A stretch of 64,000 bases of DNA from Exiguobacterium antarcticum DSM 14480 (GTDB taxonomy: Bacteria > Bacillota > Bacilli > Exiguobacteriales > Exiguobacteriaceae), in contig NZ_JMKS01000003.1 of assembly GCF_000685865.1 (NCBI RefSeq), positions 1,178,001 to 1,242,000 of the forward strand, in the 5' to 3' direction. Position 1 is the first letter of the stretch. Each line of letters begins with the position of its first letter. The position numbers were made by a program, and so were the translations under genes. A model generated the notes under the pieces. The model was not told where the DNA came from. It did no database searches and saw only the letters and a program-made list of their open reading frames with translations. Positions 1,228 to 35,606 of this stretch are shown piece after piece.

Positions 1228-1755
1228 ATGGACCAGGATCGTAACTCAAAAGACACGAACGATAACAAAGTCACACCGATTAACCAAAACAGTCAGCCAG
1301 AAACAAATGAGAACGGCGTCACAGCTGTTCAGCAACAGTATCTGGAAGAGTTCCAAGCTTTCTTAGTCGAAAAAGGCATCCCGATGGAAGCACGTGAGAA
1401 CGAAACACATGTCTTCTTCATGACACAAGAAAAAACGCCATCTGGTGCTGAACCGATGATGATGATCGTCTTCAGCAAAACAGCAACGGATGTCGAATTG
1501 TTCGCTCGGACGATTACACATGTACCAGACGGTGTCGAAGATTTACCTATCTTAAATGCTATCAACGACTTTAACCAAGAGTTCAAATACTTCCGTGTCG
1601 TTCTCGACAGCGACCGTGATGTGACGATTGCTTCGACGATCGACTTGGATCATGGCTTTAATCCGGCAGCGATCTTTGGTCACTCGGTCATGATGTTCCA
1701 AGCTTCTGACGAAGTATTTGCGTATCTCACGAAACTGTATGACCAAGTTCAGTAA
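1228..1755 (+). CDS. YbjN-domain-like protein
   Basis: A 175-residue soluble protein. The first 30 or so residues are polar and rich in Asn, Asp, Lys and Gln with no hydrophobic stretch. The remaining part alternates short strands and helices in the manner of YbjN/type III secretion chaperone-like folds (VQQQYLEEFQAFLVEK, then MMMIVF, then a paired helix ending in FAYLTKLYDQV). The start ATG follows AAGGGGG. It stands alone, with a terminator just downstream. YbjN-like proteins are proposed to help fold or sense partner proteins, but no catalytic residues are visible and no function can be assigned. Confidence 0.6.
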   Translation: MDQDRNSKDTNDNKVTPINQNSQPETNENGVTAVQQQYLEEFQAFLVEKGIPMEARENETHVFFMTQEKTPSGAEPMMMIVFSKTATDVELFARTITHVPDGVEDLPILNAINDFNQEFKYFRVVLDSDRDVTIASTIDLDHGFNPAAIFGHSVMMFQASDEVFAYLTKLYDQVQ

Positions 1756-1766
1756 AACATCACCTT

Positions 1767-1803
1767 AAAATGGCTTCCGAGGCTTCTCGAGAGCCATTTT
1801 TTT
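1767..1803 (+). terminator. Rho-independent terminator after the YbjN-like gene
   Basis: Arms AAAATGGCT (1767-1775) and AGCCATTTT (1792-1800) form a hairpin followed by further T residues, 12 bases after the stop codon. Confidence 0.85.
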
Positions 1804-1818
1804 CATTTTAAAGTTCAA

Positions 1819-1847
1819 TTGACAATGAGAATTATTCTCGCTATAGT
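1819..1847 (+). promoter_or_regulatory. Fur-controlled promoter of the iron/glycan operon
   Basis: A consensus sigma-A promoter: -35 TTGACA (1819-1824), 17-bp spacer, -10 TATAGT (1842-1847). The spacer and the -35 edge are occupied by GACAATGAGAATTATTCTC (1821-1839), a good match to the 19-bp Fur box with the inner TGAGAAT-ATTCTC inverted repeat. Fur-Fe(II) bound here would block RNA polymerase, so the eight genes downstream should be induced by iron limitation. Confidence 0.85.
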
Positions 1848-1906
1848 TAGATTTGTGAAAACAACATCATTTTATCAACTAATTATATATTCTGGGGGAA
1901 TCGATT

Positions 1907-3088
1907 ATGAAAAAACGAATTAAGGTAGCATCACTCTTCATTACGGCAGGATTACTTGCTGCTTGTGGCAACAGCGAAGAAACGACGACGGCTCCGAAAA
2001 AAGAGAAAACAGAGCAAACATCGGAGACGAAAACCAACGCCGGTATTGCGGCAACGACTTTAAAAGATGAATTGACGATTTTCAGTTCTATCAAGGCGGA
2101 GCTCGACAAAGCAAAAGAAGGTCAAGCCATCGACTGGAAAATGGTTACGACGAGTTATGACTCAAAATTAAAAGGCGGCGTCTCGACCGCTGCTCCTGAA
2201 ATCGAAGAAGTCATCAGTTCCGCATTGGCGGGTGTCGAATCAAAAGAACTGGATGAGAACGTTGCCCGTCAACTTGTCGACAAAGGCATTCAGTCTTACT
2301 TCTATAAACTCCAAAAATCAACACAAGCGACAGCAGAAGAAGCCGTTGCGGCCGGCAAAACGGACGAAGCGACAGCTGCACTGAACGATATTAAAGACAT
2401 GTCAGAAACGGTCTTCATCCCGACTGCCGAAAAACGGGATGCAAGTTACGGCTTTAAAAACGAAGACTCCATCGCTCAAGCCATCAATTCTGGGTTGACG
2501 GCACAGGAAGAAGCGATCACGGCGAAAAAGCCTGCCGATTTCAACGTGGCTAAACAGCTAACGGATAAATCAATCTACCGGTCGTTCTACCTTGCATCTC
2601 TCGGTTATGCGCAAAAAGTAGAAGAAGGCGTTAAAGCAGGTACAGATGAGAAGGAATTACAGATGGAGCAAGCCGAAGGATATGGTTTCTTGCTTGCTAT
2701 TGAGGAATCACTGGCTGGTGGAGATGAAGAAGCAGTCACTAAACTAAAAGATCTTTATGATTTCTCAAAAACAAAACCTGAAGGTATTAAGTACAAAGAA
2801 GTGGAGAGCTTATTTGCCAAAGCATTAACTGCAAAAATTGACGGATACCACGAAGAAACACAAGAAGCACTTGAGAAAAAAGATGTTGATACGGCACGGG
2901 TCGAAGCGATGGAAGCAAACATGTTCGTCATTGCGATGAAACCGACACTTGAGAGTCGTCTCGGAAAAGAACAAGCCAGCACAGTGCTGTCTGACGCCAA
3001 TGACTGGTATGCAATGGTTGAAAAAGGCGACGTGAAAGCTGAAGAGACAGGCAAGAAAGTCATTGACGCTTTAGAGCCGCTTAACTAA
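1907..3088 (+). CDS. Extracytoplasmic alpha-helical lipoprotein, first gene of Fur-controlled FTR1 operon
   Basis: A 393-residue protein with a lysine-rich n-region, a hydrophobic core and the lipobox LLAAC, so it should be lipidated at Cys20 and anchored outside the membrane. A low-complexity Thr/Lys/Glu linker follows. The rest is strongly helical and acidic and contains an internal duplication: about residues 117-160 (NVARQLVDKGIQSYFYK) and about 216-260 (NVAKQLTDKSIYRSFYL) align well by eye. It plausibly captures or presents iron for the FTR1 permease encoded six genes downstream, in the role EfeO plays in EfeUOB systems, but it is not a clear EfeO and the imelysin-type His-x-x-Glu motif was not seen. 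GGGGGA precedes the start, and the Fur promoter lies about 60 bases upstream. Confident as a lipoprotein, inferred as an iron-uptake component. Confidence 0.7.
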   Translation: MKKRIKVASLFITAGLLAACGNSEETTTAPKKEKTEQTSETKTNAGIAATTLKDELTIFSSIKAELDKAKEGQAIDWKMVTTSYDSKLKGGVSTAAPEIEEVISSALAGVESKELDENVARQLVDKGIQSYFYKLQKSTQATAEEAVAAGKTDEATAALNDIKDMSETVFIPTAEKRDASYGFKNEDSIAQAINSGLTAQEEAITAKKPADFNVAKQLTDKSIYRSFYLASLGYAQKVEEGVKAGTDEKELQMEQAEGYGFLLAIEESLAGGDEEAVTKLKDLYDFSKTKPEGIKYKEVESLFAKALTAKIDGYHEETQEALEKKDVDTARVEAMEANMFVIAMKPTLESRLGKEQASTVLSDANDWYAMVEKGDVKAEETGKKVIDALEPLN

Positions 3089-3113
3089 ACGACTGGAAAT
3101 GGAGGGGCGCGAC

Positions 3114-4034
3114 ATGCAAATTGGAATCACAGGTGGCGCAGGTTTCATTGGAGCGGCCCTCGCGCTTCGCCTTCAAGCGAGTGGTCATACCGTTAGTGTC
3201 ATCGATGCTTTCACAGATTATTATGACGTTAAACTGAAACTGGAACGGGCTCATCTTTTGCAACAGCACGGGATTGAGGTCATTGAAGGGAACGTGCATG
3301 AGGATATGGCGACTTGGTGCGCCTCCCGTTCCTTTGCCGCCCTGTTTCATCTCGCCGCCTTGCCCGGTGTACCCGGCTCGTTGGCGGAACCGCACCGGTA
3401 CATCGAGGATGATATCGCGATGACAGTGACCGTTCTTGAAGCAGCGCGCACACATTCCATTCCGCATCTGTTTTTTGCTTCTTCATCCTCCGTCTACGGT
3501 GAACAGACGGGTGCACTTGTTGAACATCAAGCAACCGGACAAGTGATGAGTCCCTACGCGGCAGCGAAATACAGTGCTGAGACATTTTGTCAGGCCTATC
3601 AGAATCTGTACGGTCTACAAATCGGCATCTTCCGCTTCTTCACTGTCTATGGTCCGTACGGCCGACCGGATATGGCGCTGTATCGGTTCATCGAACACGC
3701 CTTACACGGTCAACCGTTGACGGTTTTCGGTAAACCGGTTCGAGACTTCACTTATATTGACGACATCACACGGGGAATGGAACAAGCGCTGGAAGCACAG
3801 GCAACCGGTATTTTCAATCTAGGTGCCAACCGTCCGGAGTCAGTTCAAGACGTTGCAGCAATGCTCGGTAAACGGTTTGACGTGCCGGTAGCATTTGCTC
3901 CCGCACGGGCGGGAGATGTTTCAATGACATGGAGTAACACCGATGCGGCAAGGCAGACGTTCGGTTATGTTCCATCCGTCACGCTCGCTGATGGAATTGA
4001 ACGGATGATCACATGGCATCTCGATCGCCTGTGA
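3114..4034 (+). CDS. NAD-dependent UDP-sugar 4-epimerase family protein
   Basis: A 306-residue extended short-chain dehydrogenase. It shows the Rossmann motif GGAGFIG (7-13), SSSSVYG with the catalytic Ser (about 124), YAAAK (148-152) with the catalytic Tyr/Lys pair, and RFFTVYGPYGRPDMA, typical of UDP-glucuronate or UDP-glucose 4-epimerases. An earlier in-frame ATG at 3099 overlaps the ribosome binding site GGAGGGG (3101-3107), so 3114 was chosen. It should convert a cytoplasmic UDP-hexose or UDP-hexuronate for the glycosyltransferases in the same operon. The next gene starts inside its 3' end. Exact sugar unknown. Confidence 0.85.
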   Translation: MQIGITGGAGFIGAALALRLQASGHTVSVIDAFTDYYDVKLKLERAHLLQQHGIEVIEGNVHEDMATWCASRSFAALFHLAALPGVPGSLAEPHRYIEDDIAMTVTVLEAARTHSIPHLFFASSSSVYGEQTGALVEHQATGQVMSPYAAAKYSAETFCQAYQNLYGLQIGIFRFFTVYGPYGRPDMALYRFIEHALHGQPLTVFGKPVRDFTYIDDITRGMEQALEAQATGIFNLGANRPESVQDVAAMLGKRFDVPVAFAPARAGDVSMTWSNTDAARQTFGYVPSVTLADGIERMITWHLDRL

Positions 4035-4870
4035 TACGTGGGGCTGCGGGCGTCTTTCTGACGTTTGCAGCTCTTTTTTTACTCGTTCGTTTTGGACTGG
4101 AACTGCCTGTTGTTTACGACGATCTCCAAACCCTGTTGACATCTTCCTGGACAGTTGCCGCTACCGTCACCTATGCTTTCGCCTTTTATTTACGGGCGCT
4201 TGCTTGGCGAAACGCCGATGAAAAAACAGGTCCCACTGCGGTCTATCTGACGAGTCTCTATCTGGGACTCGCCATCAATCACCTCTCCCCCGTCAAACTC
4301 GGGGAAGCAGTGCGTTTGCTGACCGCACGCGCCATCGGTAGTCCGATGAAACGGACAACGGCGATTTTTGTCGCCCAACGCGGCATCGACCTATCCGTAC
4401 TCGGTCTTTTCGTCGCTACCGGGTTATTATTAGGACAGACGGTATGGGTGGCCGGGGTCGCCTGTATCCTCGGTCTACTCGCACTACTGCTGGTCCGTCG
4501 ATTCATCAAAACGATTTATCCGTTGATCGGCTATGGTGCACTTGCTTGGATGTGTGAAGCCGGCGCTGTTTTTTGCCTCTTTCAAGGTGCTGACGTCACC
4601 GTCGCTTTTCCGATTGTTCTAATCGCAATGAGTGCGGGCGTCTTATCCGGGATTGCCCAGTTTACGCCGGGTGGACTCGGGACGTATGAACTTGCGATGG
4701 GGACCGTCTTGCAGTTAGCGGATGTTCCACATCCCTATGAACTTGCCTTGATGACACATGTCTTTAAATACGCTTTTGCCTTTTTGGCCCCTCTTTATGT
4801 AGGTGTCCGACACTTCAAAATCGTGAAACAACTCTTCAACCAGTTTAAGGAGCACGATCAGAAAGGATGA
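4013..4870 (+). CDS. UPF0104 / AglD-like multi-pass membrane protein (lysylphosphatidylglycerol synthase TM family)
   Basis: A 285-residue protein with roughly seven or eight hydrophobic segments, starting 22 bases inside the epimerase gene. The conserved family features NHLSPVKLGEAVRL (about 90-103) and the late GIAQFTPGGLGTYE (about 213-226) are both present; these occur in the UPF0104/LPG_synthase_TM family, which includes AglD and the flippase part of MprF. In polyprenyl-linked glycosylation clusters this family is commonly found with DPM1-type glycosyltransferases. It may flip or help transfer a lipid-linked sugar across the membrane; that role is inference. No MprF catalytic domain is attached. 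Confidence 0.75.
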   Translation: MASRSPVIRGAAGVFLTFAALFLLVRFGLELPVVYDDLQTLLTSSWTVAATVTYAFAFYLRALAWRNADEKTGPTAVYLTSLYLGLAINHLSPVKLGEAVRLLTARAIGSPMKRTTAIFVAQRGIDLSVLGLFVATGLLLGQTVWVAGVACILGLLALLLVRRFIKTIYPLIGYGALAWMCEAGAVFCLFQGADVTVAFPIVLIAMSAGVLSGIAQFTPGGLGTYELAMGTVLQLADVPHPYELALMTHVFKYAFAFLAPLYVGVRHFKIVKQLFNQFKEHDQKG

Positions 4871-4875
4871 CATTG

Positions 4876-6309
4876 ATGAAAAGTGCTTCCCGTTTTGAAA
4901 AAATTGCTGCACGCATGTGGAACTTATTGAATGAAGGAAAACCGTTCACTCCCATTTTTACGATCGGTGTTTTCCTCAGCTACACTTTGTTGTTCCAACA
5001 GACCTTAAGTGGTGTTGGCTTTGGCTTTTTGCTGACACTTCCGTTACTGCTCTTATATTGGAAGTTTGATTTCCCGCTCTTTCTACGGAATTACCTGTGG
5101 CTTCCGTTGATTGTCTGGTTCTTTATCGAAGGTACCGACTCTCGACTACTCCCCTTGTTCGCGTATGGAGCAGGTCTCTATTTCTTCTTTACGGTCTTTT
5201 TCTGGGGAACGATTTATTACCATCTCCGGATCGGGACAGATTGGCTTAACTTCACTCGTTTCTGGAAGTTAGTCCTCAAAAACAGTGACTCGACGAGTGG
5301 GAATGCCCAAGAACAACTACCGAAAGTCGGTCTGTTACTCGCCTATTGGCAAACCGCCTCAATCGAACAGACCCTCGACTGGTCTTATCTTTGGTTCCCA
5401 CTTGGGCTGTTCGTGTTCGCTTGGATCTTGCATCATTACCTGTTTGACTGGAAACCAAAGCTCCCGACCGAAACGACCGTCGATGCACCGATTCCGACAT
5501 CTAATAAAGTCTATGTCCTGATTGTCGACGGGATGCGAAAAGATCGGTACATGGCAGCAGACACGCCGTTCCTCGAACGCCTCCGGCAGGAAGGCACCGA
5601 GTACACGAACATGGAGACGGTCTATCCGGCTCGAACAGTCGTCTGTTTCAGCTCGATGTTCACCGGTGCCCGCCCGGAAGAACACGGGATCCATTCGAAC
5701 ATGGTCTGGAATACGACGGGTGTCAAAACCGATACTGTCTTTGACCGGTTGCGCGACGTCGGGAAAACCGGTAAGATTCTCGGAATCGCTCATCTCGTTG
5801 ATGCGTTTGGTGCGAAGGACGTCCACACGGTGACAGCCGTCATGCATAATGATGTCGCGGATCGGAACATCATCGACCGGGCCAAACAAATCGTCCACCA
5901 AGAAGATCCGGACTTACTGGCGATTCAACTGATCGGGACCGATCAGACCGGGCACAGCCGCGGAACACTTTACTCCGAATATGTCCAAAAAATCGAAGAA
6001 GCGGACGCCTTACTGGCTGAATTTTGTGAGGAACTCGATCGGCTCGGGAAGCTCGACGATGCGACACTGATCGTCATGGCGGATCATGGACAAGCCGACG
6101 GCATCGGCGGTCATGGTCACCTCGATGAAGGCGAACGGTTTGTTCCGTTTTGGATGTACGGCAAACACATCCATGCCGGTCTGAAAGTGGATACGCACCG
6201 GCATATCCTGTCACTTGGACCCACTGTTTCGAAGCTGCTTGGTGCCGATATCCCGCACGACAGCCGGGGTGTCTTGCTTACGGAAGCCTTTAAGGAGGAA
6301 TCCTCATGA
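4876..6309 (+). CDS. Membrane-anchored phosphodiesterase of the alkaline phosphatase superfamily
   Basis: A 477-residue protein from the ATG at 4876; an ATG at 4867 abuts GAAAGG with no spacer and was rejected. The first 190 or so residues contain about five hydrophobic segments. The remainder is a type I phosphodiesterase/nucleotide pyrophosphatase domain: VLIVDGMRKD (metal-binding Asp), PARTVVCFSSMFTG with the likely nucleophile Thr, PEEHGI, LIGTDQTGH and VMADHGQADGIGGHGHLDE near the end. Such enzymes cleave or transfer phosphate or phosphoethanolamine-like groups on lipids and glycans. The first gene's stop and this region are almost contiguous, and the next gene overlaps by four bases, so it belongs to the iron-regulated operon. 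Substrate unknown. Confidence 0.8.
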   Translation: MKSASRFEKIAARMWNLLNEGKPFTPIFTIGVFLSYTLLFQQTLSGVGFGFLLTLPLLLLYWKFDFPLFLRNYLWLPLIVWFFIEGTDSRLLPLFAYGAGLYFFFTVFFWGTIYYHLRIGTDWLNFTRFWKLVLKNSDSTSGNAQEQLPKVGLLLAYWQTASIEQTLDWSYLWFPLGLFVFAWILHHYLFDWKPKLPTETTVDAPIPTSNKVYVLIVDGMRKDRYMAADTPFLERLRQEGTEYTNMETVYPARTVVCFSSMFTGARPEEHGIHSNMVWNTTGVKTDTVFDRLRDVGKTGKILGIAHLVDAFGAKDVHTVTAVMHNDVADRNIIDRAKQIVHQEDPDLLAIQLIGTDQTGHSRGTLYSEYVQKIEEADALLAEFCEELDRLGKLDDATLIVMADHGQADGIGGHGHLDEGERFVPFWMYGKHIHAGLKVDTHRHILSLGPTVSKLLGADIPHDSRGVLLTEAFKEESS

Positions 6310-7037
6310 AAAAAATCGTCGTTTTTTTACCGGCACATAACGAAGAAATTTCCTTACCGCTTGTGCTTAAACGAATCCCGACTAACATCGATGGACTTCC
6401 TGTTGAAACGATCGTCATCGATGACGGATCAACCGATGCAACGTCCGAGATCGCCCGGCAACACGGAGCAATCGTCTACCGCTTTGAACACAACCATGGT
6501 TTAGGTGCCGCCGTCCGCGAAGGACTTCGCCAGTCTTACCAACACGGGGCGACTGTCGCCGTCATGATTGATGCGGATAACGAATATCCGGCCGATCAGA
6601 TTCCGGATGTCGTCCGGCCGATCCTTTTGGACGAGGCAGACTACGTGTTTGGTTCCCGTTTTCTTGGAACCGTCGACGGCATGCGCCTGTATCGGTATAT
6701 CGGCAATCATGTCTTTACCTGGTTACAGTGTGTCTTATTAAAACGTCGGATTTACGATGGACAAAGCGGCATGCGTGCCTTTTCCCGTGCGGCGTGTAAA
6801 CACGCGGAAATCATCCACGACTATAACTATGCCCAAGTGCTGACATTGAATCTTGTTCGAAAAGGGTTCCGGCTGCATGAAGTCCCGATTCGTTACCGTG
6901 TGCGGGAAGCCGGAAAGTCCTTTATTCGCTTGAATTATATCCAGCGTGTCCTCCCTGCGATTTACCGGGAGTGGCGTCGCCCGATCGTCCCACTGTCGTC
7001 TGAAGAACGTTTTGAACGAAAGGAGCATCTCGGATGA
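6306..7037 (+). CDS. DPM1-type family 2 glycosyltransferase
   Basis: A 243-residue protein overlapping the upstream gene by ATGA. It has FLPAHNEE at the N-terminus, VIDDGSTD (38-44), the metal/nucleotide-binding DAD (89-91) and DGQSGMRAFSR, the pattern of dolichol/polyprenyl-phosphate mannosyl- or glucosyltransferases. It lacks the C-terminal membrane helices of GtrB/ArnC proteins and resembles the short soluble DPM1 class. It probably transfers a sugar from a nucleotide donor to polyprenyl phosphate at the inner face of the membrane, providing the donor for the GT-C-like enzyme at 8698. Donor and acceptor are inferred. Confidence 0.85.
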   Translation: MKKIVVFLPAHNEEISLPLVLKRIPTNIDGLPVETIVIDDGSTDATSEIARQHGAIVYRFEHNHGLGAAVREGLRQSYQHGATVAVMIDADNEYPADQIPDVVRPILLDEADYVFGSRFLGTVDGMRLYRYIGNHVFTWLQCVLLKRRIYDGQSGMRAFSRAACKHAEIIHDYNYAQVLTLNLVRKGFRLHEVPIRYRVREAGKSFIRLNYIQRVLPAIYREWRRPIVPLSSEERFERKEHLG

Positions 7038-7771
7038 GAAAACCGCTTTTCATCACCGTCATTGCCTTCTTGTTCCTGATCATCACCCCGTTGCCGGCAT
7101 TCGCCTACAGCTACGGCGATCCCGGAAAGGAAGCGTTCGCGGAAGCCTATAAGCAGTTTGAAGAACAGCTCGACCAAAACGATTACACGTTAGCCAGAGA
7201 AACAATTGATGCCTACGACAAGGAGTTTACGCTCTATTTCCCGGAAGCAAAAGACAAAATCGATGCAGCCTTAGCAGAGAAAGATGCCGATTCAGCAAAA
7301 CAAGCCTATCGGGTCGCCCTGCGCCAAAACATCGAACGTCGCCTTCACTTCGCACAGGAACAATTCGATGATTTTGGACAGGCGAAGTTATTGCTTGCCA
7401 AAGCGCGTGGCACGTACGATGTACTTGCGCCTTACGTCAAGGAAAGTGAGGGTGCAAAGACAAGTGATTCATTGTATACTGCTTTTGATGATTCACTTGC
7501 CGCTCTTGGAAACCCCGGTTTGTTCGGGGTCGGGAAAAAAGCAAGCGATCGAAAAACATTTGATCAAAACATTAAACAGATTGAAGATACGGTCACCCCG
7601 CTGTTCGTTTTGCCGGGTGAGGAGAAGACCGGTGTCTTCGATGAAGAGGATTCGATTTTCGGTCAATCCTTTGGGACGGATGACATTTGGAAAACGGTCG
7701 CCATCAGTCTCGTCATCATCTTAATCGTCATCGTCATCATCGGTCAGCGTAAGAAACGACGCGCTCAATAA
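7034..7771 (+). CDS. Secreted, C-terminally membrane-anchored helical protein next to FTR1
   Basis: A 245-residue protein with a signal peptide (hydrophobic stretch 5-22 ending PAFAYSYG), an acidic and helical extracytoplasmic region of about 190 residues, one hydrophobic helix near 222-238 (ISLVIILIVIVIIG) and a short basic tail QRKKRRAQ. It overlaps the glycosyltransferase by four bases and is followed by the FTR1 gene after 12 bases. Many bacterial FTR1 proteins carry a helical extracytoplasmic domain fused to the permease; this gene could be the separate equivalent. It may bind iron or oxidise/deliver it; no haem CxxCH or cupredoxin motif is visible. Function inferred from position only. 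Confidence 0.65.
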   Translation: MRKPLFITVIAFLFLIITPLPAFAYSYGDPGKEAFAEAYKQFEEQLDQNDYTLARETIDAYDKEFTLYFPEAKDKIDAALAEKDADSAKQAYRVALRQNIERRLHFAQEQFDDFGQAKLLLAKARGTYDVLAPYVKESEGAKTSDSLYTAFDDSLAALGNPGLFGVGKKASDRKTFDQNIKQIEDTVTPLFVLPGEEKTGVFDEEDSIFGQSFGTDDIWKTVAISLVIILIVIVIIGQRKKRRAQ

Positions 7772-7783
7772 GGAGGAAGATAC

Positions 7784-8701
7784 ATGGATTTTCAGGCGTT
7801 TTTAATCACTCTTCGCGAATGTCTCGAAGCCGTCTTGATCGTCGGCTTGATTCTCGGTTACCTCGATCGGCTCAATGCACCACAATATAAAAAATGGGTC
7901 TACGCCGGTGTCGGACTTGCCTTACTCGCGAGTTTAGGTGTCGCCTTCCTGTTCCAAGTCGTCTTTACGAGTTTCGCCAGTTTCGGCAGCGATACGTATT
8001 TACGTCTTGGGATCATGATCATCTCTGTCTTCCTCTTGACCCACATGGTGCTGTGGATGGGCAAAGAAGCAAAGGAAAATCAGAAGGCCTCACAAGCAAA
8101 AGTCGCGGCTGCCGTCTCGACGGGTAGTGCGATCACGATGATTGTCCATTCGTTCCTCGTCATCGTCCGTGAAGGCATTGAAACGGTTTTCTTCTTCGCC
8201 GCCATCTCGGGTGGAGAAATCGAAAAAGTCTTAACGAGTTATGGTGCCGTCTCCGGTCTCCTGCTCGCCTTGATCTTCGGTTACTTGTTCGTCTCTGGGA
8301 CGATGAAGATTCCCGTCAAACGCTTTTTCCAAGTGACCGGCGTCTTGATTCTGTTCATTGCTGCCGGCATGCTCGTCCAGACGATTGGCCGGTTCCAAGA
8401 TCTTGGTTTACTCGGCAGTCTGTTGACGAATGCGGACGGTACACCGGCTGCCCTCTACAACATCGTCGCCTTCATGCCGGAACACTACATTGATCAGGTC
8501 CAGTATTTGCGGGATACGGGCAACACGACGTTGATCAGCGGTCAAATCGGTACGTTCATGGCTGCGATGTTCGGCTACAGTCATAATCCGTCCATCGAAC
8601 AAGTTTTCGCCTGGTGGGGATACTTCGCTTTCGCCGGCTTCATGTTGATGCGTCAAAATCGCGCGCCAAAAACCGTCAAGAAACTGAAGGAGGTCTCGTG
8701 A
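7784..8701 (+). CDS. FTR1/EfeU-family high-affinity iron permease
   Basis: A 305-residue integral membrane protein with about seven hydrophobic segments. Both REXXE iron-transport motifs of the FTR1 family are intact: RECLE at residues 11-15 and REGIE at 129-133. AAGGAGG precedes the ATG. Members take up Fe(III) produced by a coupled oxidase, or Fe(II), through the cytoplasmic membrane. In EfeUOB operons the partners are EfeO and the DyP peroxidase EfeB; neither an EfeB nor a multicopper oxidase gene is present here, and the operon instead carries sugar-transfer genes. The Fur box at 1821 supports iron uptake as the role. Confidence 0.9.
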   Translation: MDFQAFLITLRECLEAVLIVGLILGYLDRLNAPQYKKWVYAGVGLALLASLGVAFLFQVVFTSFASFGSDTYLRLGIMIISVFLLTHMVLWMGKEAKENQKASQAKVAAAVSTGSAITMIVHSFLVIVREGIETVFFFAAISGGEIEKVLTSYGAVSGLLLALIFGYLFVSGTMKIPVKRFFQVTGVLILFIAAGMLVQTIGRFQDLGLLGSLLTNADGTPAALYNIVAFMPEHYIDQVQYLRDTGNTTLISGQIGTFMAAMFGYSHNPSIEQVFAWWGYFAFAGFMLMRQNRAPKTVKKLKEVS

Positions 8702-10092
8702 CGGTTCGAAGCGGTCATCCACAACGACGTGGACGATCGCTTTTTTTCATGGCTGTCTTGCTGATACTCGGTTGTCTCGCAGGACGCCTCTATTGGGTCA
8801 GCCCTTACGTTGCCAGCTACGATATCGCAAACTTCACCTTAGCGGTCGGACAATACGATTTAGCCAATTTACAGCCGCACTTCCCCGGGTATCCGTTTTT
8901 TATTTTGCTTGCGACGGGGCTCGCACGACTCGGACTTGATCCCGTCCGTGCCCTTGGCGTTGTCTCGACGCTCGGCTTTGCCAGTGGACTGATTCCGCTG
9001 TACCTGCTGTTCAAACGCAGACGATTCGATGCGGTTCGTCTGCTGGCTGCTTTTACGGTCGTGTCGACGGCTTCCCTTGTCGTCTTGTCCGCGACCGGGA
9101 TGTCGGACGGTCTCGCACTCGGTGTTCTTTGTTGGTTTCTCTGGAGTGTCGAACGCGCCCGGCATCATCATTTCCGTCTCCTGCCGTATATCCTGTTCGG
9201 ACTGTTGATGGCGACCCGCTTATCCTATGCACCGTTTGGGATCATCCTCTTGTTTTTACTGTGGCAAGTGCGGCGTGACGCTTGGCAAGTGGTGTCAGAG
9301 ATGGCAGTCCTGCTCCTCGCCCAACTCGCCTGGCTGTTACCGGTCGCCTTCTCTGTCGGCGGACCAGCTTCCTTTGCCCAATTGTCACTCAGCTTCGTGA
9401 CGGGTCATTTCTCGGACTGGGGAGGCACGGCGCAAACGGATGAAGCCACCCTGTTGGAACGACTTGGATTGACAATCAAACAAATGGTTTGGCATGGTCT
9501 TGGATTTGCCACTTGGATTGGTCTCGGATCGGGATTGTTGTTTTGCCAACGTTTCCGTTCGTTCCCGCTCTGGTGGAGCGTTACAGGAGCCGGTTATTTT
9601 CTCTGGGTCTGGTTTGCCCAAAACATCGATAAACCGCGGCATGTCTTACCACTCGTCTTACTGCTTGTGGTTTTACTCGTTCGACATCTGTCGGTCCGTT
9701 GGCTCGTTCCGTTTTTATGTATTCAATTGCTGATCGGAAGTACCGCTTTGTATCAACAAGCGACTACCAAACCGGCTACGATTCAGCTGGCGGAAGCCAT
9801 TACCGGTTTACCGGCGTCCGCGACCATCTTTACGGATGAAGAAGAACGTCAGTTTTTGATGGCGCGTCCTGACGCTACGATCGTCCCGATTGGATCCGTC
9901 AGCAAATGGCGGGCGGAACCAAAATCACAGGGAGTCTACCTGACCGGACGATTGCTCGAACGGTTACGGGCGGCAGATGTATCGATCGAAGTGACGGAAG
10001 TTTTCTGCTTTACGAGCGATCCCCGGTTCGAACCGGAGGATGCGGAAGCGCGGTTATACAAGTTGAAATTGAATGAAGAAGTTCCGAGATAA
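8698..10092 (+). CDS. GT-C-fold-like polytopic membrane glycosyltransferase
   Basis: A 464-residue protein. GTG at 8698 overlaps the FTR1 stop codon as GTGA and is preceded by AAGGAGG, which decides the start. There are ten or more hydrophobic segments and a first extracytoplasmic loop with acidic residues (SYDIANF) and PHFPGYP, followed at the C-terminus by an extracytoplasmic soluble tail. This is the layout of GT-C enzymes (ArnT/PMT/DPM-sugar-dependent transferases), which move a sugar from polyprenyl phosphate to an acceptor outside the cell. It is the last gene of the operon. The acceptor could be a lipid, wall polymer or one of the exported iron-uptake proteins; this is inference. No specific family name is certain. 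Confidence 0.65.
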   Translation: MTVRSGHPQRRGRSLFFMAVLLILGCLAGRLYWVSPYVASYDIANFTLAVGQYDLANLQPHFPGYPFFILLATGLARLGLDPVRALGVVSTLGFASGLIPLYLLFKRRRFDAVRLLAAFTVVSTASLVVLSATGMSDGLALGVLCWFLWSVERARHHHFRLLPYILFGLLMATRLSYAPFGIILLFLLWQVRRDAWQVVSEMAVLLLAQLAWLLPVAFSVGGPASFAQLSLSFVTGHFSDWGGTAQTDEATLLERLGLTIKQMVWHGLGFATWIGLGSGLLFCQRFRSFPLWWSVTGAGYFLWVWFAQNIDKPRHVLPLVLLLVVLLVRHLSVRWLVPFLCIQLLIGSTALYQQATTKPATIQLAEAITGLPASATIFTDEEERQFLMARPDATIVPIGSVSKWRAEPKSQGVYLTGRLLERLRAADVSIEVTEVFCFTSDPRFEPEDAEARLYKLKLNEEVPR

Positions 10093-10187
10093 AGATTCTG
10101 TTTTTCCTTATTTTTTTCAGATGATTAGCAAATTATCACTTCTCAACTTATTAGTTGAAGTGAACATAAAAAACCACTCTTTTCCAT

Positions 10188-10302
10188 GCGCTTTCCTCAG
10201 GCGAGATACAAGCCAGTTTTCCTGCCTCCATGAGGCAGAAAATCGGGTCTTATTTGTCTCTGACAGCGCAAGTCGATTGCGTTTTTTCCTGTAGGAGTCG
10301 CG
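10188..10302 (-). repeat. Intergenic structured repeat, copy 1
   Basis: Read on the minus strand it begins CGCGACTCCTACAGG, has a small hairpin with arms near TTGCG/CGCAA, a variable central hairpin (arms at 10217-10228 and 10232-10242) and ends CCTGAGGAAAGCGC. The ends match the copy at 43469-43585 almost base for base while the central stem differs entirely. The same head sequence recurs at 10390 and 21761. Confidence 0.75.
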
Positions 10303-10367
10303 TGAAGCGAGTGATTTTTTGAATCCAGGTTCTTAATGTGTCGATCTTAACAGCTTAACAAAACGTC

Positions 10368-10494
10368 GTTGAGAAGCAGACAAGACGAAGACTCCTGCGG
10401 GAAAAGCGGAACAGATGAGACCCCGTAAGTCGCGCAGGCGACGCGGAGGCTCACGTTTCGCCCGCGGAAAGCGAAGTCTTGTCTGCGTATCAAC
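10368..10494 (+). repeat. Intergenic repeat with inverted ends, copy 2
   Basis: The ends are inverted: GCAGACAAGAC (10376-10386) and GTCTTGTCTGC (10476-10486), each flanked by a further matching GTTGA/TCAAC. Inside are the head GACTCCTGCGGGAAAAGCGG, a GAGACCCCG block, a GGAGGCTCACG block and the tail GCCCGCGGAAAGCGAAG. This resembles a class of short intergenic repeats widespread in Bacillaceae. No open reading frame is credible in 10093-10531; the interval holds this copy and the one before it. Confidence 0.75.
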
Positions 10495-10531
10495 GAATCT
10501 TGAACCGAATTCGAAGTACTTCCCTCATCAT

Positions 10532-11092
10532 TCAAGTTGCATACGGTCGTTCCATATAATCAAATTGTCCGCCACTGATTTCAATCGTCTTGACCGGGAC
10601 GAATCCAAGACGCCGATACAGGCGTTGCGCACCAGCATTCGTCTGATCGGCATTTAACGTAAACGCCCGTAATCCACGCCGTTCCCCTTCATCCGCCGCT
10701 GCCTGCAGCAGCTCAGACCCAATTCCTTTTCCACCATATGCCGCATCAACCGACAACGTATCCAGATAAAAGACGTTTCCTTCCGTCTCTTGATCAATCT
10801 GCACCTCTTGTCCTGTCCACGCGAGCAGCTGACGTTTAATCGGTTCATCCAACTGTGCCGCATCCACTCCCGCGTATGCGATGACGATGCCGACGACACG
10901 CCCGTCGAGTTCCTTGACGAGAATATTCTCGTGACTGAGCCGGTTTCCCGTTTGCGTAACGAACAGCGCGAGCCGTTCCAAAATTAATTCCTTTTCCTGT
11001 GTTCCGGTCAGCGTTTCAGCAATTTCATGAATCGCCTGTTCAATCAACGGTGCGATTTGATCCGCGTCATTAGCAGTTGCTTGTCTAATCAT
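10532..11092 (-). CDS. GNAT-family N-acetyltransferase
   Basis: A 186-residue protein. The central part contains the acetyl-CoA-binding region (YLDTLSVDAAYGGKGIGSELL, motif A with the GxGIG loop) and the C-terminal ALYRRLGF-type motif (here AQRLYRRLGFVPV) of GNAT enzymes. It should acetylate an amine on a small molecule or protein N-terminus in the cytoplasm. GAAAGGGG lies before the ATG at 11092. The gene is transcribed in the same direction as the YitT-like gene upstream, from which it is separated by a terminator. Substrate unknown. Confidence 0.85.
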   Translation of the reverse strand: MIRQATANDADQIAPLIEQAIHEIAETLTGTQEKELILERLALFVTQTGNRLSHENILVKELDGRVVGIVIAYAGVDAAQLDEPIKRQLLAWTGQEVQIDQETEGNVFYLDTLSVDAAYGGKGIGSELLQAAADEGERRGLRAFTLNADQTNAGAQRLYRRLGFVPVKTIEISGGQFDYMERPYAT

Positions 11093-11133
11093 TTATTTGG
11101 CCCCTTTCTTCTACACTCTTTTATCGTAAAACA

Positions 11134-11165
11134 AAATCCCTCCTGACGTCAGGAGGGATTTGTTC
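11134..11165 (-). terminator. Terminator of the YitT-like gene
   Basis: A 28-base perfect palindrome with arms AAATCCCTCCTGAC (11134-11147) and GTCAGGAGGGATTT (11148-11161), lying just after the YitT-like stop on the minus strand. It is followed on that strand by TTTTGTTTTA. Confidence 0.85.
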
Positions 11166-11168
11166 ATT

Positions 11169-11780
11169 TCATTTCAGTTCAGCTACTGGAACCGGTACAA
11201 CGACTGGTTCACGTGTCATGACGGAAACAACACGACCTGCGATTGCAACGGCAAGTAAGGTGTATAACGTCAGACTAAGCGGTAAATAGACGAGTGAGAT
11301 GACGAGGACGATGGCATCTAATCCAAATAAGATCGTTCCGATTGATAACCCCGTCAACTTACTAAGTCCCATCGACAAGAGATCGTCTCCTCCGGTCGCT
11401 GCGCCACTTTTCAAGACAAGTCCTAAACCGTATCCTGTCACGATTCCGCTGGCGACAGCCGCAATCAGTGTTGCCGGCCAAGCCTGTTCCGGAAAATGAA
11501 ACAGATCCAGACGGTACCACATCTCATAAAATAATGAGAGGGCTCCGGCTGATACGAGTGCTTCACTGACAAACCGTTTGCCTTTAAAATACAAGGCGCC
11601 GATGAAAAATGGAATATCGAGCACGATCATTGAAATGGACGGATTGATGTCAAAAAAATAACGTCCGAGTAACGACAGACCAATAAATCCGCCTTCTGCC
11701 AAGCCAAATTGTTCATTCAAGGTATAGTAGCCGAATGCCATGAGTAGCGTCCCGCTTAAGATGGTGATGATTCGTTTCAT
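11169..11780 (-). CDS. YitT/YczE-type integral membrane protein
   Basis: A 203-residue protein with five or six hydrophobic segments. It shows the family features of a Gly-rich N-terminal helix (GTLLMAFGYYTLNEQFGLAEGGFIGLSLL), a conserved aromatic/Pro loop with DIPFF, and SGAATGGDDLLSMGLSKLTGLSIG in the second half. These are typical of the YitT/YqfU/YczE membrane family. It lacks the C-terminal DUF2179 domain present in many YitT proteins, ending shortly after the last membrane segment. Substrate or function is unknown. It is preceded by a 210-base structured leader that hides its ribosome binding site (see 11781-11990), so expression is probably controlled at translation. Confidence 0.75.
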   Translation of the reverse strand: MKRIITILSGTLLMAFGYYTLNEQFGLAEGGFIGLSLLGRYFFDINPSISMIVLDIPFFIGALYFKGKRFVSEALVSAGALSLFYEMWYRLDLFHFPEQAWPATLIAAVASGIVTGYGLGLVLKSGAATGGDDLLSMGLSKLTGLSIGTILFGLDAIVLVISLVYLPLSLTLYTLLAVAIAGRVVSVMTREPVVVPVPVAELK

Positions 11781-33640: not shown

Positions 33641-35323
33641 TTACATTTCTTCTGGAGCACCGACACCAAGCAGGCGTAATCCTTCCATCAATACAATCGT
33701 AACCGATTTCACGAGTGCAAGGCGAGATTGTTTTTCTGCATCTTCTTCTAGGACACGGACTTGTCCATAATATTTGTTGAAGCTTTGAGCTAAATCAAGC
33801 ACATACCGGCTGATGATTGACGGTTCGCGACGTGTAAACGCCCGGTCGATCACAGTTGAGAACTGGTTCAGCATCGATACGACGCCCCACGAGTAATCAT
33901 CCGCACTTCCGACAAACGCCGATCCATCGTATTCCCCTTTACGAAGTAAGGAATTTGCCCGCGCATTCGTATATTGGACATACGGACCCGTTTCTCCTTC
34001 AAATTTAAGCATTTGTTCTAAATCAAATTCGATGTTGTTCATCCGCTCATTTTTTAAATCATGGAAAATGACGGCGCCGACACCGACTTCGCGTGCCGTC
34101 TGTTCGGCATTCGCCAAGTTTGGATTTTTCTCGGCGATGTTTTGCTTCGCAACATTGATCGCATCTTGTAACACTTCTTCCAGGAGGACAATCCGTCCCT
34201 TACGTGTCGACATTTTTTTGCCATCTTTCATGATCAGACCAAACGGCACATGGTGCATGCCATACACATTTTCAAACCCAAGTTTTTTCAAGACCGCAAA
34301 CAGCTGTTTGAAGTGAAGTGCTTGTTCCCCACCAACAACATAAAAGGCTTGCTCGAAACCGTATGTCTCAAGACGGTAGACCGCAGCCGCCAAATCACGT
34401 GTCGCATATAACGTCGCACCGTCTTTCTTCTTGATCAAGGCCGGAGGCATCCCTTCTGCTTCGAGATCGACGACCATTGCGCCTTCCGATTCAACTAACA
34501 ATTCTTTTTCTTCGAGCAGATCAATGACGTGTTGCATCTTATCGTTATAGAACGCTTCTCCGTTCAAACTGTCGAAGCTGACACCAAGCATTTGATAGAC
34601 GCGGTTGAACTCGACGAGCGACACTTCACGGAACCATGTCCAAAGTGCCGTCGCTTGTTCGTCACCCTGTTCGAGTTTTTTGAACCAAGCACGCCCTTCG
34701 TCTTCTAGAGCCGGGTTCTCTTCTGCTTCTTCGTGGAAACGGACGTACAATTTAAGCAGTTCCTTGATCGGCTCAGCGCGGACGTCTTCTTCTTTGCCCC
34801 ACATGTTGTAAGCGACCATCAGCTTACCAAACTGTGTTCCCCAGTCCCCCAGATGGTTGATGCCGACGACGTCGTATCCTTTTTTCCGTGAAATCTGATT
34901 TAAGGCATTCCCGATGACCGTCGAACGTAAATGACCCATCGAGAAAGGTTTCGCAATGTTCGGTGATGAGAAGTCGGTGACAATCGTTTTTCCGGTCGGC
35001 TCGCTTGATCCGTACGCTTGTTTTTCTTCCAAGACACGTTTGACGATCTCCCGTGAGACGATTTCCCGATTTAAGAAGACGTTGACGTATGGTCCTGCTG
35101 CTTGGACGTTTGAGAACAATGGATTATCGATTTTTTCAGCCAACTCCGTCGCAATCATCATCGGTGCTTTGCGGAACGCTTTAGCGAGTTGGAAACAAGG
35201 GAAAGCTAAATCCCCATGATCTTCGTGTTTTGGTTGTTCAATCAATTGTTCAATCTCTTCTTGCGATAACGCATCACCAATCACGTCATGTAATACTTTG
35301 GCATATTGTTGCTTATAACTCAT
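33641..35323 (-). CDS. argS: Arginyl-tRNA synthetase
   Basis: A 560-residue class I synthetase of the short Bacilli type. The HIGH-equivalent is in SSPNIAKPFSMGHLRS (normal for this subgroup), the KMSK-equivalent is KDGKKMSTRKG, and the C-terminal DALR-like anticodon-binding domain ends NKYYGQVRV and beyond. It charges tRNA-Arg in the cytoplasm. GGAGGG precedes the ATG. The T-box leader at 35346-35606 couples its expression to uncharged tRNA. Confidence 0.95.
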   Translation of the reverse strand: MSYKQQYAKVLHDVIGDALSQEEIEQLIEQPKHEDHGDLAFPCFQLAKAFRKAPMMIATELAEKIDNPLFSNVQAAGPYVNVFLNREIVSREIVKRVLEEKQAYGSSEPTGKTIVTDFSSPNIAKPFSMGHLRSTVIGNALNQISRKKGYDVVGINHLGDWGTQFGKLMVAYNMWGKEEDVRAEPIKELLKLYVRFHEEAEENPALEDEGRAWFKKLEQGDEQATALWTWFREVSLVEFNRVYQMLGVSFDSLNGEAFYNDKMQHVIDLLEEKELLVESEGAMVVDLEAEGMPPALIKKKDGATLYATRDLAAAVYRLETYGFEQAFYVVGGEQALHFKQLFAVLKKLGFENVYGMHHVPFGLIMKDGKKMSTRKGRIVLLEEVLQDAINVAKQNIAEKNPNLANAEQTAREVGVGAVIFHDLKNERMNNIEFDLEQMLKFEGETGPYVQYTNARANSLLRKGEYDGSAFVGSADDYSWGVVSMLNQFSTVIDRAFTRREPSIISRYVLDLAQSFNKYYGQVRVLEEDAEKQSRLALVKSVTIVLMEGLRLLGVGAPEEM

Positions 35324-35345: not shown

Positions 35346-35606
35346 TTTTTCCAATAAAAAACGCCCTTTGCGCAACACGCAAAGAGACGGAATGACCGCG
35401 GTACCACTCTTCTTGGTGTCAAACATGTGACACCCACTTTAACTGGTGATAACGGGGATCCCCCGGCTACGCCTGATCAGATTGATTCGGATAGCATCTC
35501 GGAAGTGCGCTTCACGGTTTTTGTTTCATTCAGGCTTCCACCATTCCCTGATTCGCTGGCTGATCAAATCATCCCGTTACTTTCTTCGTCATCGATTGTT
35601 GATATC
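35346..35606 (-). promoter_or_regulatory. T-box leader of argS
   Basis: On the minus strand the conserved T-box sequence AGTGGTACCGCGG lies at 35408-35396. It is followed by the terminator arms CTTTGCG and CGCAAAG (35366-35384) and a T run. Upstream, GGTGGAAGCC and an AGTAAC stretch fit Stem I landmarks. Uncharged tRNA would pair with the T-box and prevent termination. I could not fix the specifier codon by eye; the gene predicts an arginine codon. Confidence 0.9.

Follow-up and report, generated by a model that had tools for sequence, protein, structure and literature searches.

Known iron-uptake systems built on an FTR1 permease, such as EfeUOB and Fet3-Ftr1, combine an oxidase with protein ligands. 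Polyprenyl-phosphate sugars feature in several known pathways: in ArnC/ArnT, a GT2 enzyme loads a UDP-glucuronate-derived sugar onto polyprenyl phosphate for a GT-C enzyme acting outside the membrane, the RgtE/RgtA-D galacturonate pathway follows the same logic, and Gram-positive three-component glycosylation (CsbB/GtcA/YfhO) employs a GT2, a candidate flippase and a membrane glycosyltransferase. Within the window examined here, a 64-kb stretch of the Exiguobacterium antarcticum genome, we found an eight-gene cassette with features of both kinds of system. Like EfeUOB or FepABC, it combines an FTR1-type permease with partner proteins outside the cytoplasm and has a Fur-type site, but a DyP peroxidase is missing, none of its proteins is clearly of the imelysin type, and it carries five extra sugar genes. 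The predicted sugar route is like that of ArnC/ArnT, yet it departs from both ArnC/ArnT and RgtE/RgtA-D in its Fur-type control, its linkage to an iron permease, its additional phosphodiesterase and UPF0104 protein, and its Gram-positive type envelope without lipid A; a lipid A acceptor is unlikely in such a host. In its combination of enzyme types it would also resemble CsbB/GtcA/YfhO, and the two differ in the cassette's iron control and in its predicted uronic acid in place of GlcNAc. Our preferred reading, to which we give slightly better than even credence, is that the cassette serves Fur-type-controlled ferric capture in which extracytoplasmic parts, or a surface glycan, receive a polyprenyl-linked uronic acid.

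The eight ORFs (1907-10092, forward strand) overlap or nearly touch, with intergenic spacings of +25, -22, -4, -4, -4, +12 and -4 bases from 5′ to 3′, and our ORF, promoter and Fur-box scans bore out the original prediction that they follow one sigma-A-type promoter with a Fur box. The promoter, TTGACA-17-TATAGT (1819..1847, +), matches the consensus at 11 of 12 positions and is the best of eight promoter-like sites scanned in 1700-10450, a number of sites that does not stand out from chance (6.6 in shuffled sequence, sd 3.0). Overlapping its -35 element and spacer is the Fur box GACAATGAGAATTATTCTC (1821..1839, +), which matches the consensus at 15 of 19 positions and is the sole Fur-type site in the window to score at least 15/19. 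Upstream, a terminator-like stem-loop (1781..1795, +) lies 3′ of the preceding gene (1228-1755); it comes from a consensus scan only, which found 15 such sites in the scanned region against 10.6 expected. An Rfam scan of the window gave one match at the gathering threshold, outside the operon, and none within it.

These genes form one conserved unit with conserved Fur-type sites. All eight are present in the same order in 32 of 42 cassette-type loci, and 24 of these 32 lie outside Exiguobacterium, which settles in the affirmative whether the order recurs beyond the genus. A Fur site of at least 15/19 precedes the lipoprotein gene in 37 of 40 loci (9 of 2000 shuffles), 32 of the 33 loci outside Exiguobacterium have a second one next to the anchor gene, and 98 of the 111 sites of this strength found across 831 kb fall in just these two slots, before the lipoprotein and before the anchor gene; Fur presumably binds at these predicted sites. 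Among 398 profiled genomes of the class, the phosphodiesterase (PDE) was found in 58, the anchor protein in 55 and the GT-C protein in 57, with all three in 54 genomes and any of them in 61; outside the window's own genus, 37 genomes had PDE and anchor protein, 4 PDE alone, 1 anchor protein alone, and 337 neither. Compact arrangements (n=49) took two forms, PDE-anchor-GTC (35) and anchor-GTC-PDE (14), the GT-C gene lay at most 10 kb from the anchor gene in 52 of 54 genomes, and five genomes carry both halves on separate contigs. Pairwise distances of sugar and iron genes were correlated (e.g. PDE-sec 0.89, sec-FTR1 0.95; lower for the lipoprotein, 0.46-0.73) in a comparison that covered 27-34 loci per pair, excluded near-identical Exiguobacterium and cannot tell vertical descent from joint transfer; no conclusion here is based on it. 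That the sugar genes are chance neighbours or hitch-hikers next to FTR1 has in its favour the general clustering tendency of bacterial genes and nothing more; because gene order and Fur-site placement recur, and given the 54/61 co-occurrence, the two arrangements and the halves on separate contigs, we rule this explanation out as having virtually no probability. We count against the preferred reading one locus reduced to lipoprotein, anchor, FTR1 and GT-C genes only (L039), and four genomes (G106, G140, G169 and G170) with a divergent PDE and no anchor protein.

On the iron side, the first gene (1907..3088, +) encodes an all-helical lipoprotein that is distantly FEA1-like and that we propose to be an iron-binding surface protein. 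Similarity of the FEA1 type was detected in 29 of 34 members at E <=0.01, and the window protein scored 33.4 bits against the FEA1-related NCBIfam model NF038033; it thus shares a proposed surface iron role with the phytotransferrin-related algal proteins FEA1 and ISIP2a but is a bacterial lipoprotein far under the curated family cut-off of 250, and its iron role is predicted. A fold search with its predicted model (pLDDT 88.3) gave no specific relative, the best matches (Z up to 11.3) being vinculin/catenin-type helical bundles that are common for helical proteins, and PDB searches with the lipoprotein and the anchor protein returned no hits or chance-level hits. Identity with EfeO/imelysin was rejected, as that alignment covered the signal peptide only. 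The lipoprotein linker was likewise dropped as a favoured O-glycan acceptor, since its Ser/Thr content is not conserved (2 to 12 per 35 residues among members).

The anchor protein (7034..7771, +) is a predicted secreted helical protein whose alignment and hydrophobic segments (residues 5-23 and 218-236) indicate a signal peptide and a C-terminal membrane anchor. With a limit of E = 1, weak imelysin matches were obtained for 8 of the 30 members, the strongest at 1.1e-4, with no match for the window protein, and profile comparisons with the EfeO (hhalign) and the EfeU of a separate EfeUOB locus (L053), the latter considering the anchor protein as a split-off N-terminal domain of EfeU, were not significant. 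The FTR1/EfeU-type permease (7784..8701, +; PF03239, 9.2e-40) has both REXXE motifs, as first predicted, at residues 11 and 129, and they are kept in 43/43 cassette FTR1 rows; against EfeU (NF041756) it scored 175.4 bits, under the cut-off of 255. None of the eight genes had a Pfam match to the DyP-type peroxidase EfeB, and without that peroxidase at the locus a classical EfeUOB identity was discarded. The reported absence of EfeB therefore holds for the cassette but not for the genome, where L053 holds a separate EfeU-EfeB-EfeO set including the DyP protein, making the cassette a second FTR1 system.

Turning to the sugar genes, we narrowed the predicted UDP-sugar epimerase to a UDP-glucuronate 4-epimerase-like SDR protein (3114..4034, +; start best set at 3114, the longest ORF beginning at 3099) on the basis of its PDB relatives (5u4q, 6zl6) and conserved residues. 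Residues equivalent to Pro85, Arg185 and Thr280 in the UDP-glucuronate 4-epimerase from Bacillus cereus, whose roles are given in PMC12338863, occur in 35/35, 35/35 and 34/35 epimerase rows (one gap). The cassette sugar is thus probably a uronic acid, and these residues point to galacturonate as the probable one. In further support of a uronic acid, 8 of the 42 loci have a UDP-glucose dehydrogenase-like gene next to the cassette. L061 and L063 carry one inside their sugar operons, which contain no epimerase, so that the sugar may be glucuronate there. In E. antarcticum such a gene is found elsewhere in the genome, outside the cassette; with the acceptor and the roles of the UPF0104 protein and the PDE putative as well, the original wording of a complete pathway goes slightly too far, though a coherent polyprenyl-phosphate-sugar route to a GT-C-fold enzyme stands.

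Loading of the sugar is assigned to a DPM1/ArnC-type GT2 (6306..7037, +; PF00535, 4.9e-23), a proposed polyprenyl-phosphate uronosyl synthase whose best PDB matches are dolichol-phosphate mannose synthase (5mlz, 5e-15) and ArnC (1.9e-9) and which scored 99.9 bits against the NCBIfam dolichyl-phosphate hexose transferase, under the cut-off of 375. The UPF0104/LPG_synthase_TM membrane protein (4013..4870, +; PF03706, 3.8e-20; TIGR00374 below cut-off) is a possible flippase; it was not found in loci L012 and L041 and so is not essential. Between these two genes lies that of a membrane-anchored NPP-type PDE of the alkaline phosphatase superfamily (4867..6309, +; PF01663, 1e-30; NPP relatives in the PDB), a family whose chemistry is phosphodiester cleavage. 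Its T257, D221, D359, H363, D406 and H407, which we take from NPP alignments to be the nucleophile and metal ligands, are invariant in 28 rows. Conservation of the PDE is high, with column identity averaging 65% compared with 43% for GT-C, 32% for the lipoprotein and 39% for the anchor protein, and its gene lies immediately 5′ of the GT2 in 40/40 loci holding both, which would suit a pathway that yields a released small glycoside or glycosyl-phosphate, with the PDE as an LtaS-like transferase and the product a soluble or wall-bound chelator; this we judge improbable, as it leaves the GT-C without a clear role and none of the eight genes would export or take up a soluble chelator.

The last gene (8698..10092, +) encodes a GT-C glycosyltransferase whose predicted model (pLDDT 88.6) folds like ArnT (5f15; Z 24.4, rmsd 5.6, 402 aligned), with PMTs and OST next. 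Asp42, after the first helix, is invariant in 32 rows; With a limit of E = 0.1, 13 of the 32 members matched PMT_2; the window protein gave no match, and the relative in L079 reached 44.2 bits, over the cut-off of 26.1. Protein O-mannosyltransferases among the fold relatives, and a GT-C gene that in most loci neighbours FTR1 or the anchor gene, would fit an enzyme that adds sugar to the anchor protein or the lipoprotein, a modification serving their folding, stability or positioning in the wall and not iron binding. Yet ArnT and GT-C enzymes that modify polymers or lipids are also among these relatives, and the GT-C gene sits inside the sugar operon in L024, L061 and L063, so we regard that role as rather unlikely.

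Loci where the sugar genes are separated from the permease bear both on the preferred reading and on a different function of these genes. There are six of these, and in three (L059, L061 and L063) the sugar-only operons keep predicted Fur-type sites of their own, scoring 16-17/19 ahead of the first gene, which strengthens the preferred reading; in the others, which we count against it, the score was 15/19 (L065), 14/19 (L024) and only 13/19 (L067). A search with the nine cassette profiles only also found four loci, L075, L077, L078 and L080, that have PDE and GT2 genes but lack the iron genes of the cassette, with Fur-like sites of 14/19, 15/19, 13/19 and 14/19, respectively, near the PDE start, three of these (14-15/19) just upstream. 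Together with the known teichuronic-acid-like cation binding in Bacillus, these loci favour a uronic-acid envelope polymer or glycolipid made as a general iron-starvation response serving cation balance or wall charge; its genes would share regulation with FTR1 and have no role in transport. We consider this unlikely in view of the proximity of GT-C and anchor genes and the joint occurrence of PDE, anchor and GT-C described above, and a transport role fits better with what happens when the permease is exchanged. In three genomes of another class of Firmicutes (L076, L079 and L081), the module lies beside a FutA-type ferric ABC transporter in place of FTR1, a replacement of the FutABC/FbpABC kind that is absent from the window cassette and is ferric again (E-values by PDB comparison 1.7e-102, 3.4e-99 and 9.5e-98, respectively), and the L079 genome gave no match to FTR1. 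The ferric assignment of the L076 and L079 binding proteins rests on the PDB comparison, their NCBIfam label being aminoethylphosphonate-type (below cut-off), which we count against the preferred reading. Searches for this ABC-transporter variant within its taxonomic order and family added no further genomes.

Under the preferred reading of glycan-assisted ferric capture, Fe(III) would be retained on the extracytoplasmic side by the lipoprotein and the helical anchor protein, which would hand it over to FTR1, or to the FutABC-type transporter in the other class. UDP-glucose dehydrogenase and the epimerase would provide UDP-glucuronate and UDP-galacturonate, and the GT2 would attach the uronic acid to polyprenyl phosphate. 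The loaded lipid would be flipped outward by a membrane protein, for which UPF0104 is a candidate, and the GT-C would transfer the uronic acid to an extracytoplasmic acceptor, with the anchor protein, the lipoprotein and a wall glycopolymer as the likeliest choices. The PDE may act on a lipid-linked intermediate or add a phospho-group, and the added carboxylates would concentrate iron close to the permease. The identity of the sugar, its acceptor and the iron function of the cassette are all inferred from sequence. The original interpretation is thus supported in part: the single unit with its Fur-type site, its spread beyond the genus and its sugar route hold up, and glycosylated iron proteins or an iron-capturing surface polymer are predictions. 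More tentatively, and with somewhat less than even confidence, we propose a new type of iron acquisition in which iron-starved cells coat their uptake apparatus, or the surface next to it, with an acidic uronic-acid glycan; this would act as an immobilised chelator of ferric iron feeding an exchangeable permease (FTR1 or FutABC-type).

Full-text searches of an open-access collection turned up no paper describing the cassette, subscription papers and preprints being outside that scope. The accessible part of a Clostridioides difficile Fur study (PMC6311696) names glycosyltransferase genes, apparently of other loci, and that of a report on a Psychrobacillus uronic-acid exopolysaccharide that adsorbs iron (PMC11376405) mentions no such operon. 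Our comparisons suggest that the cassette, present in many Firmicutes, is an apparently undescribed way of catching iron. If this is true, some bacteria employ glycans as parts of their iron-uptake machinery, the anchor protein, the phosphodiesterase and this branch of GT-C enzymes would each have a function assigned, and the siderophore-free holding of Fe(III) at a Gram-positive-type wall would become a direct genetic question.

The cassette in the window comprises eight plus-strand ORFs spanning 1907-10092 (lipoprotein, epimerase, UPF0104 membrane protein, phosphodiesterase, GT2, anchor protein, FTR1 and GT-C), separated by gaps of +25, -22, -4, -4, -4, +12 and -4 bases. A consensus scan placed a promoter (TTGACA-17-TATAGT) at 1819-1847 on the plus strand, in a region where promoter-like sites occur at chance level (8 found versus 6.6 expected); within it lies a plus-strand Fur site (1821-1839) that matches 15 of the 19 positions of the Fur box and is the sole site scoring at least 15/19 in the 64-kb window. 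Pfam matches among the eight proteins were to Epimerase, LPG_synthase_TM, Phosphodiest, Glycos_transf_2 and FTR1, with no family found for the lipoprotein, the anchor protein or the window GT-C. The window belongs to an Exiguobacterium genome: the FTR1 it encodes has the same sequence as the Exiguobacterium sp. KRL4 protein, and shares 99% identity with the E. undae protein and 97% with the E. sibiricum one. Beyond the last operon gene, we noted by eye GC-rich, self-complementary-looking DNA (10150-10500), of which 10370-10500 had no second copy in its own genome at E up to 0.001. Elsewhere in the window, a T-box leader (35380-35601, minus strand, 110 bits) stands immediately 5′ of a reverse-strand ORF (33641-35323) that by eye resembles arginyl-tRNA synthetase.

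FTR1 peptide patterns run over 84,980 species genomes yielded 46 loci, four of which (L044-L047) have FTR1 only, at 27-30% identity, the remaining 42 (L002-L043) being cassette-type. Comparing the window proteins with locus ORFs by BLASTP, we found all eight genes in the window's order in 32 of these 42 loci, with Exiguobacterium accounting for eight of the 32; the epimerase of L017 is divided between two ORFs. The departures from this arrangement were varied: contig ends truncate the cassette in L022 and L023, L009 is without the epimerase and has its phosphodiesterase spread over three ORFs, L012 has neither epimerase nor UPF0104, L036-L038 are without the short epimerase (L036 carries a longer one adjoining a dehydrogenase), L039 is reduced to lipoprotein, anchor protein, FTR1 and GT-C, and gene order is rearranged in L024 and L041. 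One contig labelled Chryseobacterium sp. ISL-80 (L042) bears a Bacillaceae-type cassette laid out as in Cytobacillus (L032), and its assembly is probably mislabelled or contaminated.

Because the scan of 84,980 genomes was seeded by FTR1, we also ran profile searches seeded without it. Among 398 genomes of the window's class, which we take to be Bacilli, profiles for the phosphodiesterase, anchor protein and GT-C were positive in 58, 55 and 57 genomes, respectively, all three together in 54 and any of them in 61; the phosphodiesterase was present in 29 of the 145 genera sampled. For the 379 genomes outside the window's own genus, 37 had both phosphodiesterase and anchor protein, four the phosphodiesterase alone, one the anchor protein alone and 337 neither (Fisher's test about 1e-45, with no correction for relatedness). 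The two genes lie within 10 kb of each other in 49 of the 54 genomes, in two arrangements (35 and 14), and on different contigs in the other five. Cassette-type phosphodiesterases (E <1e-240) occurred in 17 of 19 genomes of the genus, including the window genome, and in none of 19 sister-genus genomes. Fragmented GT-C genes, with the rest of the cassette missing, were seen in L072 (genome G366, contig C4; several stops) and L073 (genome G390, contig C1), perhaps reflecting recent loss.

Fur-type sites accompany this conservation on both halves of the cassette. The best match within 250 bases upstream of the lipoprotein gene reached at least 15/19 in 37 of the 40 loci having that ORF, a score attained by 9 of 2000 shuffled controls of the same stretches; the exceptions were L027 (14/19) and L024 and L041 (10-11/19), two loci in which the lipoprotein gene does not come first. 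A census of 831,419 bases from 41 loci gave 111 merged sites of at least 15/19. The lipoprotein gene accounts for 62 of them in 37 loci, and the anchor gene for 36 in 32 loci (every non-Exiguobacterium locus except L041). Among the remaining 13, two belong to the L010 lipoprotein gene, whose ORF had been given too early a start, and another six fall just inside the anchor ORF. With sites at both genes, most relatives outside Exiguobacterium appear to make two transcripts under Fur control, both of which carry iron and sugar genes; in Exiguobacterium, where the genes overlap, only the lipoprotein-side site was seen.

The sharpest test of iron control is offered by loci with separated iron and sugar halves. 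Sugar-only operons have predicted Fur sites of 17/19 in L061 (38 bases before a GT-C, phosphodiesterase, GT2 and UDP-glucose dehydrogenase ORF set), 16/19 in L063 (about 20 bases before GT-C, UPF0104, phosphodiesterase, GT2 and dehydrogenase) and 16/19 in L059 (about 170 bases before the likely start of the epimerase, followed by UPF0104, phosphodiesterase and GT2), while other separated sugar genes scored 15/19 (L065), 14/19 (L024) and just 13/19 (L067). Two further iron loci were observed. The window's own genome has a second set, EfeU-EfeB-EfeO (L053, contig C6:203000-217000, at 6741-10592), with a Fur site of 18/19 at 10532 and, by eye, two almost identical transposase-like ORFs nearby (4090-4875 and 5339-6124). 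A Peribacillus asahii plasmid encodes an FTR1 (L001, 9942-10891) near cytochrome c biogenesis genes, with a Fur site of 17/19 and the other cassette genes not present at the locus.

Turning to the sugar, the nearest PDB entries to the cassette epimerase were 5u4q and 6zl6, the latter presumably the Bacillus cereus UDP-glucuronate 4-epimerase. We matched 6zl6 residue numbering to the cassette proteins by counting along the alignment. A published study (PMC12338863) describes Arg185 as holding the UDP-galacturonate carboxylate, lysine and tyrosine as the galactose-enzyme residues at the Pro85 and Thr280 positions, and alanine at the Pro85 equivalent as a mark of UDP-xylose 4-epimerases. Equivalents of Pro85 and Arg185 are kept in 35/35 cassette epimerases and of Thr280 in 34/35 (one gap). 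A UDP-glucose dehydrogenase-like gene adjoins the cassette in eight of 42 loci. Five of the eight were compared with NCBIfam, and every one scored above the cut-off for nucleotide sugar dehydrogenases; TuaD was one of their best models but stayed below its own cut-off. The dehydrogenase is present and the epimerase lacking in the L061 and L063 sugar operons, and the window genome has such a dehydrogenase elsewhere (339.6 bits, under the TuaD cut-off). Together, the epimerase residues and dehydrogenase genes suggest UDP-galacturonate (or glucuronate) as the likely donor. Separately, L055, L056 and L057 (about 7800-11500) have a divergent phosphodiesterase followed by a protein of ~366 residues that, tested for L055, matches only parts of UDP-glucose dehydrogenase; by eye, recR- and tmk-like ORFs stand close to L055, a setting it shares with the complete sugar operons in L061 and L063. 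Such loci give the impression of a copy that was reduced or re-purposed.

The remaining enzymes belong to recognizable classes. The nearest relatives of GT2 are dolichol-phosphate mannose synthase and ArnC, and the phosphodiesterase, an NPP-type member of the alkaline phosphatase superfamily, lies immediately 5′ of GT2 in 40 of 40 loci having both; it is the most conserved of four aligned families (mean column identity 65%), with catalytic columns invariant in 28 rows. VIA-align comparison of the predicted GT-C structure (AlphaFold2, mean pLDDT 88.6) placed ArnT first (5f15, Z 24.4, rmsd 5.6, 402 residues), followed by protein O-mannosyltransferases and oligosaccharyltransferases; PMT_2 matched 13 of 32 GT-C members at E up to 0.1 and, above its cut-off, the GT-C protein of L079. 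UPF0104 appears dispensable, because BLASTP did not find it among the ORFs of L012 and L041.

On the iron side, both REXXE motifs are kept in 43/43 cassette FTR1 rows. The lipoprotein is confidently modeled as all-helical, and a fold search with this model returned no specific structural relative. Of 34 members, 29 match a FEA1-related lipoprotein model with E up to 0.01, the lowest being 2.7e-11; for the window protein the score is 33.4 bits, where the cut-off is set at 250. Since FEA1 and diatom ISIP2a (phytotransferrin) are described as algal iron-uptake proteins (PMC7676907), a possible iron-binding role for the lipoprotein can be taken as a lead only. In the anchor protein, a signal peptide precedes an ectodomain bearing the invariant motif LGNPGLFG, and a membrane helix lies at the C terminus; with E up to 1, imelysin was weakly matched by 8 of its 30 members, which is suggestive only.

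In some genomes outside the class, the permease itself differs. The phosphodiesterase was found in 12 of 398 phylum-drawn genomes, seven of them outside the window's class, and in three of these seven (L076, L079 and L081) another ferric-type transporter replaces FTR1: an ABC transporter adjoins a module of phosphodiesterase, GT2, anchor-like protein, lipoprotein-like protein(s), GT-C and UPF0104, which includes the epimerase in L076 and L079. The epimerase assignment is less certain there, because alanine replaces the Pro85 equivalent. The ABC binding protein is FutA-type, its top PDB relatives being iron-binding (E 1.7e-102 for L076, 3.4e-99 for L079, 9.5e-98 for L081), although the best NCBIfam names for the L076 and L079 proteins were aminoethylphosphonate-type, all below cut-off. 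All three loci show a permease ORF, and L076 and L081 an ATPase ORF as well (in L081 by eye and layout only). FTR1 had no match in the L079 genome and lies on a different contig in the L076 and L081 genomes; only 3 of the 13 genomes searched from the order of L079 have the phosphodiesterase. The other four matches (L075, L077, L078 and L080), from one family of another class, have the phosphodiesterase beside a GT2 ORF that is too long, and lack the iron genes of the cassette; Fur-like sites near the phosphodiesterase start scored 14/19, 15/19, 13/19 and 14/19, respectively, on a scale where 14/19 was reached by 80 of 2000 shuffled 250-base stretches. These loci may reveal the role of the phosphodiesterase-GT2 pair by itself.

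The original prediction, that iron starvation induces glycosylation of iron-uptake proteins or of an iron-capturing surface polymer, is therefore partly supported: the analysis establishes the gene set, its conservation, the Fur-type sites on both halves, the enzyme classes and, in three genomes, another ferric-type transporter in the place of FTR1, while we infer Fur binding, the identity of the uronic acid, pathway direction, the acceptor, iron binding by both extracytoplasmic proteins and the benefit of the glycan. The finding is also more general than that prediction knew. The likeliest role of the cassette is ferric capture: under iron starvation, polyprenyl-delivered uronic acid would decorate an extracytoplasmic acceptor. 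Overall, we regard it as a variant of FTR1-type iron uptake, with a fair chance that the contribution of the glycan amounts to a new principle.
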